Assembly: GCA_002841335.1 (NCBI GenBank)
Contig: PHEY01000001.1
Coordinates: forward strand, 964 to 64,963
DNA length: 64,000 nt
Direction: 5' to 3'
Origin: Actinobacteria bacterium HGW-Actinobacteria-2
GTDB lineage: Bacteria > Actinomycetota > Actinomycetes > Propionibacteriales > Propionibacteriaceae
The notes beneath the pieces were generated by a model. That model ran no database searches. It saw nothing but the letters and a program-made list of their open reading frames with translations, and was not told the DNA's origin. Below, in pieces: positions 29,922 to 34,652 of this stretch (position 1 is its first letter; each line of letters opens with the position of its first letter). A program made the translations under genes and the position numbers.

Positions 29922-30962
<1,041 letters not shown>

Positions 30963-30965
30963 GCT

Positions 30966-31007
30966 ACGCACGAAGGGCCGCCGGTTCTCCGGCGGCCCTT
31001 CGTGCGT
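30966..31007 (+). terminator. ilvC terminator hairpin
   Basis: A perfect 19-bp inverted repeat, ACGCACGAAGGGCCGCCGG and its complement, with loop TTCT, begins 3 nt after the ilvC stop. No T-run follows, which is common for high-GC terminators. Confidence 0.8.
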
Positions 31008-31038
31008 CCCGCCCCCGTCCCCGCCCCCTCCGCCAGAC

Positions 31039-31096
31039 GCCCCCGAATCGCGCAACCGCTACCGAAACTTCGGCAGCGGTTGCTCATTTCGGGGGC
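31039..31096. repeat. 58-nt quasi-palindrome, copy 1
   Basis: Nested inverted arms: GCCCCCGAA/TTCGGGGGC (9 bp), GCAACCGCT/AGCGGTTGC (9 bp) and CCGAA/TTCGG around a 2-nt centre. It shares 45 of 58 positions with the copy at 32120, in the same orientation, and lies upstream of the DUF559-type gene. It is separate from the ilvC terminator. Confidence 0.85.
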
Positions 31097-31215
31097 CTTT
31101 GGACGACGGGACGTGGGCAGAGGGGGAGCAGCCGCGCGGGCGGCGGTGTTGTCGGGGTGTTGGCAATCGGCTCTGGGGCCTTGATGTGCGTGCTGGAAGG
31201 CGATGCGCTTGCAGC

Positions 31216-32106
31216 ATGGAGGTTCTGAGGGCGGCGCGTTTCGCCAACGAGGGGATCCGGGTGCAGGACCTGCTGCGGGCAGGGCCGGAGGTCGGATTGG
31301 TGCGGGTGCGCCATGGCGGGTATGCCCGGGCGCTGGCCGACGGCACCGAGGGGCGACATCGGCAGTTGGTCGCGGCCACCTACCCGTTGCTGGGGGAGCG
31401 CACCGTCCTGAGTCATGGCAGCGCGGCCCTCCTTCATGGCTTGCCCGTGTGGGGATCCCTCCTCGATGTGGTGAGCGCGACCAGATCAGAGGGGGGTCAT
31501 GGGCGGCGAGGGCGCAATCTTCACGTTCGCCTCGCCGAACTCGACGTCGGTGAGATCGTCGACGTCGATGGTCACAGGTGCACCTCCCTGGAGCGGACGG
31601 CGCTCGACGTCGCGAGGATCGTCACCTACGAGCGGGCTGTAGCCGTGTTGGATGCAGCACTCCGAATGGGGGCGAGCCGCAGCATCCTGGACGACACGGC
31701 GGCCCGAGCTAGAGGACGGACAGGCGCAGCCAGCGCGGCGCGAGCGCTGCAGTTCGCCGATCCTCGTTCGGAGAGCGTGGGGGAGTCGGTCAGCCGTGTG
31801 CGGATCGCTCGCGCCGGGCTCCCGCGGCCGGATCTGCAGGTCAATCTGTACGACGATGACGGCGTCTGGCTGGCTCGCTCCGACTTTGCCTGGCGTGAGC
31901 AGCGGGTGATCGGAGAGTTCGACGGACGGGTCAAGTACCGCGGAAGTGTCGAGGAAGTGGCCGACACGGTGATGCGCGAGAAGTCACGCGAGCAAGCGAT
32001 TCGCGACGCGGGCTGGTGGGTCGTCCGCTGGAGTTGGCACGACTTGGCCGACACGCCGGCCTTCCGCCGGCGCCTAGAGACCGCACTGCGCCGGCCCCTC
32101 GGCTGA
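31216..32106 (+). CDS. DUF559/AbiEi-like protein with Vsr-type nuclease domain
   Basis: 296 residues from ATG 31216. The N-terminal 100 residues ([41 protein letters not shown]) resemble the winged-helix N-terminus of AbiEi-type proteins. The C-terminal 90 residues look like a PD-(D/E)XK fold: Asp in [10 protein letters not shown], then [11 protein letters not shown] giving E-x-D-x-x-x-K, and [19 protein letters not shown] as the following helix and strand, as in DUF559/Vsr-like endonucleases. Function is unknown; antitoxin, nuclease or selfish-element roles are all possible. No toxin gene is adjacent. Two homologous 58-nt palindromes flank it. Upstream in-frame codons exist from 31099 but are Arg/Cys-rich and unlikely. 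Confidence 0.75.
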
Positions 32107-32119
32107 TCATCGCGAATCC

Positions 32120-32177
32120 GCCCCCGAAGTGCGCATCTGCCGCCGAAATATCGGTAGCTGCTGCTCGTTTTGGGGGC
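32120..32177. repeat. 58-nt quasi-palindrome, copy 2
   Basis: Same length and orientation as the copy at 31039, 78 percent identical. The outer arms GCCCCCGAA/TTTTGGGGGC pair with a wobble; the inner CCGAAATATCGG is conserved; the middle arms differ in both halves from copy 1. It starts 14 nt after the DUF559-type gene and ends 54 nt before the P-type ATPase start. Confidence 0.85.
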
Positions 32178-32231
32178 ATCTGGGTGGGGGAAGGCTGGGG
32201 AGCCCTGGGTTCGTCTGGCAAGCTGGCGGCC

Positions 32232-34652
32232 ATGACGAACACCACTGTGGTCGCCGCTGGTCTGAGCGACGCGGACGTCGCTGAACGGGTCGCGCGGGGC
32301 GAGGTCAACACGCTGCCACCACGTAGTGGACGCACCACCTGGGACATCATTCGAGCCAACGTGTTCACCCGGATCAACTTCTTGCTGATGGTGCTGTTCG
32401 TGATCGTGTTGAGCACCGGCAGCCTGGGCAATGCGCTGTTCGGCTTCCTGATCATCATCAACTCCGGCATCGGCGCGGTTCAGGAGCTTCGCGCCAAGCG
32501 CACCCTGGACAACCTCGCTGTGGTGGGGGAGGGCAAGCCGCTGGTCCGGCGCAACGGCGTGGCGTCCGAACTGCTCCGGGAGTCCATCGTCTTGGACGAC
32601 ATCATCGAGATCGGGCCTGGCGATCAGATCGTCGTCGACGGAGAAGTCATCGAGGCGTCGTATCTGGAAGTGGACGAGTCCCTGCTGACCGGTGAGTCGG
32701 ACGCTCTGGTGAAGCAACTCGGCGATGAGGTCATGTCGGGCAGCTTCGTGGTGGCCGGTGTGGGTGCCTTCCGGGCGACGCGGGTCGGCCATGAGTCCTA
32801 CGCGGCCCAGCTGACCGCCGAGGCCAGCAAGTTCTCGCTGGTGAAGTCAGAGTTGCAGACCGCGATCAACAAGATCCTGCGCCTGATCACCTGGCTGCTG
32901 ATTCCCGTCGGCGTGGTCACCGTGTGGGTGCAATGGACGCAGAATCCTGGCGCTCCCTGGCAGGAGATCGTGCTGCGGATGTCGGGCGCCTTGGTGCCGA
33001 TGGTGCCCGAAGGGCTGGTGCTGTTGACCTCGCTGGCCTTCGCGGTCGGGGTTATTCGGCTGGGGCAGTTGAACGTACTGGTGCAGGAACTGCCGGCGAT
33101 CGAAGGCCTGGCACGCGTGGACGTGGTCTGCGCCGACAAGACCGGCACGCTCACCGAGAACGGCCTGCAGTTCACTCACGCGACCCCCGTGGACGGCGCT
33201 GATCAGGATCAGATCGACCAGGTGCTGACCCAGTTGGCCACCGCCGATCCCCGTCCGAACGCCTCAGTGAAAGCGATCGCGCACGCGCTGCAGCCGGCGG
33301 GAGAGGTGTGGCCCACGACCGCGATGGCGCCGTTCACGTCGGCGAAGAAGTGGTCGGGAATGAGCTTCGGCGACCAGGGCAACTGGGTGATCGGTGCCCC
33401 GGACGTGTTGGCGCCCACCGGAAGCGCGGTGGCTGAGGAGGCCGAGCAGATCGGAATCACCGGACGTCGGGTGCTGCTGCTGGGCCGCAGCGACCTGGCC
33501 GTGGATGATCCTGCTGCGCCCGGCGTGGTTACGCCGATGGCGCTGGTGGTGATGGAGCAGAAGGTTCGTCCCGAAGCCGCTGGAACCCTGGCCTACTTCG
33601 CCGAACAGAACGTCGCGGTGAAGGTGATCTCCGGCGATAACGCCAAGTCCGTGGGTGCGGTGACCGGCTCCTTGGGGGTCGACACCGGCGAAGTCGTGGA
33701 CGCCCGCACGCTCCCGGACGACCCGACCGCCTTCGCCGACCGCGTCGAAACGGCCAGCGTGTTCGGCCGAGTGACCCCGCAACAGAAGCGCCAGATGGTC
33801 GCAGCACTGCAATCGCGCGGCCACAACGTGGCCATGACCGGCGACGGCGTCAACGACGTCCTGGCGATCAAGGACTCCGATCTGGGCGTGGCCATGGGGT
33901 CGGGTGCCGCCGCGACCCGCTCGGTGGCTCAGATCGTGTTGCTGAACGACGACTTCGCCACCCTGCCGCACGTGGTAGCCGAGGGACGGCGGGTGATCGG
34001 CAACATCGAGCGGGTGGCCAACTTCTTCCTCACCAAGACGATGTACTCCATCGTGTTGGCGCTGCTGGTAGCGGTCGCCCAGTTGCCGTTCCCGTTCGTG
34101 CCGATGCACGTCTCGTTCATCGGGTGGTACACGATCGGCATTCCGGCGGCGATCCTGGCGTTGGCTCCCAACGCTGAACGTGCCCGCGCCGGCTTCCTGA
34201 AGCGGGTGATGAGCTTCTCGATCCCGGTGGGCCTGGTGATCGGCGTGACCGCCTTCGTGTCCTACCTGGTGTCGCTGCAGTCGGTGCCCACGTCGGCCAC
34301 CCCGACCCAAGCCAGTACGGCAACGGTGATCGCGGTGATGATCGCCGGCGGCTGGGCGATGATCGCCATCGCCCGTCCCTACCAGTGGTGGAAGGTCGCG
34401 ATGATCGCGATCATGATCACCCTCGCCCTCCTGACCGTCTTCTGGCTGCCCGGCTGGTACGCCCAGATGCTGCCGGTCTGGCCGTGGTTGGCCACCGCCA
34501 ACCCGCAGCTCGACCCGTCCAACGTGGCCTTGAACACCACCGCAGCCTGGTTCGGACTGGGCGCGGCGGTGCTGGTGGAGGCCATGTGGTGGATCTCGGG
34601 CCGGGTCACCGGCCTGCACCGCCGGGTTTTCGGCAGCCTCGCGGAGCGCTGA
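32232..34652 (+). CDS. P-type cation-transporting ATPase, CtpE-like
   Basis: 806 residues. Actuator motif LLTGESD, phosphorylation motif [12 protein letters not shown], and hinge motif [24 protein letters not shown] are all present. The M4 segment reads [16 protein letters not shown]. About ten hydrophobic segments are visible, four before the P domain and six after. The shortened nucleotide domain and PEGL segment match the mycobacterial CtpE group, reported as calcium transporters; ion specificity is inferred from that. ATG 32232 is chosen because upstream codons overlap the palindrome and the DUF559-type gene. Its stop is 3 nt from the convergent leuB stop. Confidence 0.88.

Follow-up and report, generated by a model that had tools for sequence, protein, structure and literature searches.

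Dispersed bacterial palindromes with a known dedicated enzyme are those served by RAYT/TIRYT-type tyrosine (HUH) transposases, as presented in the sections of the papers that concern us here (PMC8049555, PMC3116915, PMC3733652). According to the same sections, REPINs rely on RAYTs, which are single-copy genes inherited vertically (PMC8049555, PMC3116915, PMC3733652), the classes of REP palindrome adjoin their RAYTs, and genomes that contain a RAYT hold more REPINs (PMC8049555, PMC3116915). CGTC-tagged REPs resemble the elements described below in being dispersed palindromes without a dedicated RAYT, and differ from them in that the excerpt cited names no nuclease that goes with them (PMC3733652). 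In the open-access literature, we found no report of DUF559, AbiEi or Vsr genes with dispersed palindromes.

The window analyzed here is a stretch of 64,000 nucleotides from Actinobacteria bacterium HGW-Actinobacteria-2 (genome G000). Two 58-nt palindromes (31039-31096 and 32120-32177) flank a predicted nuclease gene on the plus strand (31216..32106; ATG at 31216, TGA at 32106), just as the initial annotation had proposed. The covariance model R1, built on eight G000 copies, scores them at 81 and 72.7 bits; they are 77% identical over a 65-nt alignment (45 of 58 positions are equal between the 58-mers) and pair with themselves at 24/29 and 20/29 positions, respectively. The upstream palindrome starts 76 nt past the stop codon of ilvC (29934..30962, plus strand), and the downstream one 13 nt past that of the nuclease gene. 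Both ilvC and the right-hand neighbor (32233..34652, plus strand), which we take, following the initial annotation, to be a P-type ATPase, lie outside the unit, and the ATPase is the neighbor at the orthologous ilvC locus in relatives too. The earlier suggestion that ilvC has a terminator of its own agrees with a perfect 19-bp hairpin directly 3' of the gene (30966..31007). No T-run was found 3' of either window palindrome, and no terminator-like site was called in the window unit. The 58-mers have a 9-mer like GCNNCCGAA near positions 1 and 20 and the complementary 9-mer at 31 and 50, which places the four half-sites of the upstream copy at 31039-31047, 31058-31066, 31069-31077 and 31088-31096. 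The pattern GCCCCCGAA-N30-50-TTCGGGGGC has a single match in the window, the upstream copy, and none in 100 dinucleotide shuffles. At the far left of the window, positions 1-437 hold coding-type tandem repeats with an 81-nt period.

Between the upstream palindrome and the gene there is a TGTTGTC/TGTTGGC direct repeat (31147..31164, plus strand). TGTTG occurs in at least two copies in 13 of the 14 upstream regions of the close clade (nuclease relatives with at least 52% identity, short fragments in G020 and G016 being left out), at 14.8 per kb versus a background of 0.85 per kb. In these 13 regions the TGTTGTC repeats are spaced 20-22 nt apart, or 11 nt in certain cases, the window among them, and they are conserved although the palindromes diverge. 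The repeat is a possible operator.

The N-terminus of the protein is matched by the PADLOC model for AbiEi (E=7.7e-9), and a model of the whole protein (pLDDT 88.4) has the AbiEi antitoxin 6y8q as its best Foldseek match (E=5.2e-3), in line with the AbiEi likeness noticed originally. The C-terminal domain (about residues 172-296), modeled alone (pLDDT 86.8), matched Vsr first (1cw0, E=3.7e-3) and the homing endonuclease I-Bth0305I second (3r3p, E 0.017). All of these Foldseek E-values are weak, none being below 0.001, and the likeness to Vsr claimed earlier is upheld at that level by the predicted fold. E19, D52, E63, D65 and K69 (fragment numbering) are among the residues invariant in 42 homologs. 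Against Pfam, the window protein gave nothing confident (one meaningless match, E 0.17), against NCBIfam it gave no match, and a profile search of PDB sequences returned none; at E<=0.1, AbiEi_4 was matched by 6, DUF559 by 4 and MTES_1575 by 4 of 15 relatives, and by the window protein none. As modeled, the protein is AbiEi-like at its N-terminus and Vsr-like at its C-terminus, and a nuclease role is predicted. The AbiEi-like region recalls the AbiE type IV toxin-antitoxin systems. Here, however, the neighbors are ilvC and the P-type ATPase, no AbiEii nucleotidyltransferase toxin is adjacent, and the protein has a C-terminal nuclease domain and goes with dispersed palindromes. Similarly, the predicted fold of the C-terminal domain is shared with Vsr and I-Bth0305I, whereas the N-terminal part is different, the gene lies outside any intron, neither of its two neighbors is a methylase, and it is associated with palindromes.

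Many copies of the element had been predicted, and many were found. R1 gave 26 matches over both strands of G000, corresponding to 13 sites, and pattern searches located 97 sites in G014, 43 in G019 and 23 in G012 (the reversed pattern gave 0). The G000 sites are intergenic, most of them shortly 3' of stop codons; when flanking ORFs were read by hand (neighbors were readable at 12 of 13 sites), 4 sites lay between convergent and 8 between tandem ORFs, and 0 between divergent ones. The tails of the 11 G000 solo sites are mostly T-poor, one having 6 T in 10. None of the 13 G000 copies has GTAG/CTAC within 8 nt of either end; 12 have it internally, in the inner half-sites. Rfam was searched for a known RNA family, which was rejected: all seven matches were far under the gathering score and six were to microRNA families. 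Separately, two solo palindromes of G000 enclose a 454-aa ORF (L013, 6844-8409 of C8); its place is taken by just 482 nt in G004 and by 1264 nt without a match to the ORF in G010, which raises the possibility of recombination at the palindromes.

We next consider the genus, represented by 30 genomes, most of them MAGs, in 25 of which IlvC was found. Close-clade nucleases number 15 genes in 11 of the 30 genomes, three genomes having 2-3 genes, and R1 matches (E<=0.01) occur in 14 genomes. At the same threshold, every one of the 15 genes has an R1 palindrome on each side (14/14 fetched loci plus L096), and none was found at 19 other nuclease loci or at 5 RAYT loci. All 11 nuclease-bearing genomes carry palindromes, at about 9-97 sites each; these and the other R1 counts per genome are lower bounds (at least the number given), and the halving of both-strand matches is approximate. 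Of the 19 genomes without a close-clade gene, 16 have zero R1 sites, G010 has 1, G017 has 3 and G020 has 18. The last of these (80% complete) retains a C-terminal nuclease remnant beside a palindrome, and its contig breaks 10 nt past ilvC. Gene-less genomes are scattered over an IlvC tree of 24 genomes, in which well-supported sister pairs with and without the gene show 13 sites in G000 and 3 in G017, 9 in G004 and 1 in G010, and 10 in G006 and 0 in G003 (completeness 83%); G007 and the G015/G018/G021 clade have zero. Many of the genomes that lack both gene and palindromes may simply be early-branching or incomplete. The three G017 sites are orthologous to G000 sites and less palindromic, pairing at 15/28, 20/29 and 17/28 positions versus 28, 23 and 23 of 29 in their G000 orthologs, although two of the three G017 copies have indels, so that ungapped counts run low. 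By sequence, sister species without the nuclease have few palindromes, and less palindromic ones. The nucleases of G011 and G002 seem frame-disrupted near the C-terminus (assembly error is possible), and both genomes still have palindromes. At the ilvC locus of G017 (L169), another long palindrome, GGGGACGGTTCCTCGTGTCCC..GGGACAGGAGGAACCGTCCCC, stands where G000 has the unit; it is reminiscent of RAYT-type REPs.

More distant nucleases of the genus have palindromes of other kinds. Flanking palindromes of a further sequence are found in a middle clade (42-47% identity) and are clear in L078, L081 and L082. The flanks of L079 and L080 are alike, but their best upstream and downstream palindromes differ, and the palindrome test, for which L064 was too short, found no flanking palindrome at L065. 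In the far clade, 4 of 12 loci (L012, L066, L068 and L071) score at least 12 on the downstream side alone, each with one long palindrome of other sequence there.

At the shared ilvC locus, palindromes differ among species and the upstream and downstream copies remain alike. For 23 of 30 close-clade flanks (ties counted) the nearest flank is the partner flank; for the 7 exceptions it belongs to the gene at the same locus in a related genome. Solo palindromes were nearest to a nuclease flank of their own genome in 10/11 cases in G000, 10/19 in G012 (19 of 23 sites used) and 35/40 in G014, where 41 were fetched and the 40 used of 97 sites were the first listed and therefore non-random; none of the 43 G019 sites was used. 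Among the 40 from G014, 18 were nearest to the flanks of L096, 17 to those of L094, 0 to those of the third gene, L095, and 5 to flanks of other genomes. Of the 19 from G012, 8 went with L091, 2 with L090, 8 with the L091 ortholog in the sister genome G016 and 1 with L095. Judged by these nearest matches, most dispersed copies are closest to nuclease flanks from the genome in which they lie.

A similar arrangement is seen beyond the genus. The homolog set comprised the best 80 of 459 loci in a scan of genome contigs; L115, L118 and L161 lie in genus genomes, and 62 loci lie beyond the genus. At 46 of 78 loci (L103 and L115 were too short), the similarity between upstream and downstream flanks was higher than the 99th percentile of the same-locus controls; against a cross-locus control (99th percentile 44, maximum 70.5), just 24 of the 62 loci beyond the genus exceeded 44. 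Palindromes were scored at 77 loci (L103, L115 and L162 dropped), with a threshold of 12 or more on both flanks. By this test, both flanks carry palindromes at 41 of 77 loci versus 0 of 281 control placements, including 12 of 13 close-clade loci; 36 fall under the two-sided threshold. Of the 62 loci outside the genus, 28 carry palindromes on both sides and 55 on one or both. The expected enrichment of palindromes beside such genes is therefore borne out by these counts and by the close clade, but does not extend to the three other DUF559-like paralogs of G000, which have no such palindrome pair. The link between gene and palindrome is clade-specific. The opposite result, palindromes with no link to these genes, was looked for and did not occur.

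Among the matches listed, palindrome sequences vary from genus to genus. In 62 of 115 palindromes, one arm contains a direct repeat 6 nt or longer; 59 of these 62 (38 of 41 beyond the genus) have a pitch of 19 or 20 nt, and the longest within-arm repeat averages 6.09 versus 3.73 in shuffled arms. This two-turn pitch of the half-sites suggests that they are recognized as duplex DNA. In Pseudonocardia spinosispora, queries taken from the flanks of two of its nucleases identified two palindrome families, each with at least 40 distinct sites and at non-overlapping places. In the upstream regions of the homologs L100-L167 (without L104), at about -40 to -117 relative to the start of the gene, two further motifs were observed: GTCCACAG in 35 of 67 (about 0.75 expected), and TTGTCCACA, which resembles a DnaA box, in 12 of 67.

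Copying is most visible in G014, where three pairs of identical 58-mers stand at unrelated places. Their extra match extends just 2-6 nt per side and the flanks past the first 20 nt have 3-11 matches per 20, and identity so limited argues that a small unit was copied. The palindromes are multi-copy and, by these comparisons, appear to be copied as units of about 62-70 nt. One G014 copy (C4:158918-158975) is a hybrid that joins half of one subfamily to half of another, a hint that turnover may proceed by half elements. The gene unit itself sits at two loci common to several species in 13 of 15 cases. One G014 gene, which groups (100/99) with the gene at the ilvC locus of G019, sits elsewhere in G014, and the ilvC locus of G014 retains a solo palindrome whose outer motif is as in the G019-like unit. 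In G010 the order is ilvC, one palindrome, then the ATPase. Orthologous sites thus exist in three states: unit, solo palindrome, or neither. Empty sites with clean junctions had been anticipated. At the level of the unit this was realized: the two genes flanking the G014 unit are adjacent in G011 (a presence/absence difference without polarity), and there are ilvC sites with one or no palindrome. A clean empty site for a single palindrome was, on the other hand, not found at the three G000 C8 solo sites checked against the sister G017, which has there other-looking DNA without an R1 match, a decayed relic, and an additional ~1.9 kb that includes a different ORF. The one unit-level empty site (G014/G011) was compared for a target-site duplication, and its flanks were too diverged to score. 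Carriage by viruses or plasmids was not seen: 237 pattern stretches in viral contigs included no relative, and in plasmids three Tsukamurella records were found, none covering 80% of the query. Taken together, the proposal that the gene either spreads a palindrome family or is spread along with it is supported, and we infer movement itself from sequence comparison.

We think that the palindrome-gene-palindrome unit is probably the home of a nuclease, for the most part inherited vertically, that recognizes and maintains small dispersed palindromes. The association of gene with palindrome is strong and general. That the nuclease binds and cuts the palindromes, and hence spreads or maintains them, is what we infer as best supported. 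In this mechanism, the AbiEi-like part would dimerize or tetramerize and bind the half-sites in double-stranded DNA, and the Vsr-like domain would nick or cut within or near the palindrome. Repair off another copy could then homogenize and spread palindromes. The flanking copies would allow the gene unit to be copied to another site, and recombination between them would lose the unit and leave a solo palindrome.

Several other explanations have to be weighed against this mechanism. The protein could be a DNA-binding regulator, or of the nucleoid type, with the palindromes as its operators and a nuclease fold that is inactive on them. The DNA targets of AbiEi antitoxins are inverted repeats that precede the antitoxin genes, the N-terminus is AbiEi-like, and binding sites, too, would decay once the binder was lost. 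Nevertheless, copies have the whole 58 nt in common, spacers included, and some are identical at unrelated places, which needs copying and not convergent binding sites. In addition, the separate TGTTGTC repeat is more operator-like DNA, the nuclease residues are invariant among homologs, and the lack of divergent gene pairs at the 12 readable G000 sites also makes a purely regulatory role unlikely. Strong hairpins at intergenic sites, mostly just past stop codons, might instead be ordinary bidirectional transcription terminators multiplied at gene ends. This is barely credible, since the window unit has no terminator-like match and the 11 solo tails are mostly T-poor, ilvC already has its own hairpin, the palindrome sequence is tied to the nuclease, and 16 of 30 same-genus genomes have zero sites; the terminator reading was set aside for the absence of terminator-like sites.

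Two further explanations give the nuclease gene a different part. If another enzyme (a Y1 RAYT or transposase) spread the palindromes, the nuclease unit would be a passenger caught between two copies, as the classical REP-RAYT link described in the cited excerpts might lead one to expect (PMC3116915, PMC3733652). RAYT-type genes occur in 14 of the 30 genus genomes in a survey of enzymes that covered RAYTs (PF01797). However, G000 has no PF01797 match despite its 13 palindrome sites, nor do G013 and G006 with about 66 and 10, while G003, G005, G007 and G021 have RAYTs and zero R1 sites. The RAYT as driver was not favored on account of this distribution and of the five RAYT loci without R1 palindromes; flanking in 15/15 cases, plus gene-specific palindromes in other genera, would hardly be expected of a passenger, an origin that we find quite improbable. 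A homing-like selfish gene, in which the nuclease cuts solo palindromes and repair copies the flanked gene in, is suggested by the second structural match, a Vsr-fold homing endonuclease, by the existence of unit, solo and empty states, and by the three genomes with 2-3 close-clade genes. A carrier genome has, however, far fewer copies of the gene (1-3) than of the palindrome (about 9-97), and two loci common to several species account for 13 of the 15 genes. Homing of the gene would thus be rare at best, and as a general account it is very improbable.

Returning to a nuclease that maintains its own palindromes, its likeness to REPINs and RAYTs is one of layout: a few, vertically inherited genes, each beside its own type of palindrome, one class per gene, as in the excerpts cited (PMC8049555, PMC3116915). 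As is also described there, palindromes are more numerous in genomes that hold the gene, with G020 and its gene remnant as the exception. In contrast, the window protein has no HUH/Y1 domain (PF01797), its enzyme being AbiEi plus Vsr-like; the element lacks a terminal GTAG and is built from four half-sites whose pitch is 19-20 nt; and the arrangement was found in actinobacteria. Since the HUH domain was tested for and is absent, the system is not a REPIN/RAYT member, alike as the layout is. The best reading, by analogy, is a REPIN/RAYT-like arrangement built on an unrelated nuclease. Both protein and DNA element are non-homologous to the RAYT/REPIN pair, and the layout is convergent. We also lean towards a broader view, that of a second, independent REP-like class, widespread in actinobacteria, in which AbiEi/Vsr-like nucleases copy and homogenize their own four-half-site palindromes on double-stranded DNA and the unit occasionally moves.

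These results suggest an unrecognized partnership of a nuclease with small spreading DNA elements. If true, palindrome populations would have evolved with a second class of enzyme, and a common group of 'DUF559/AbiEi' proteins in actinobacteria would gain a role. The spread of REP-like elements, an old question, would become testable with a different chemistry, and the pairs of gene and palindrome would provide many natural pairs of protein-DNA specificity.
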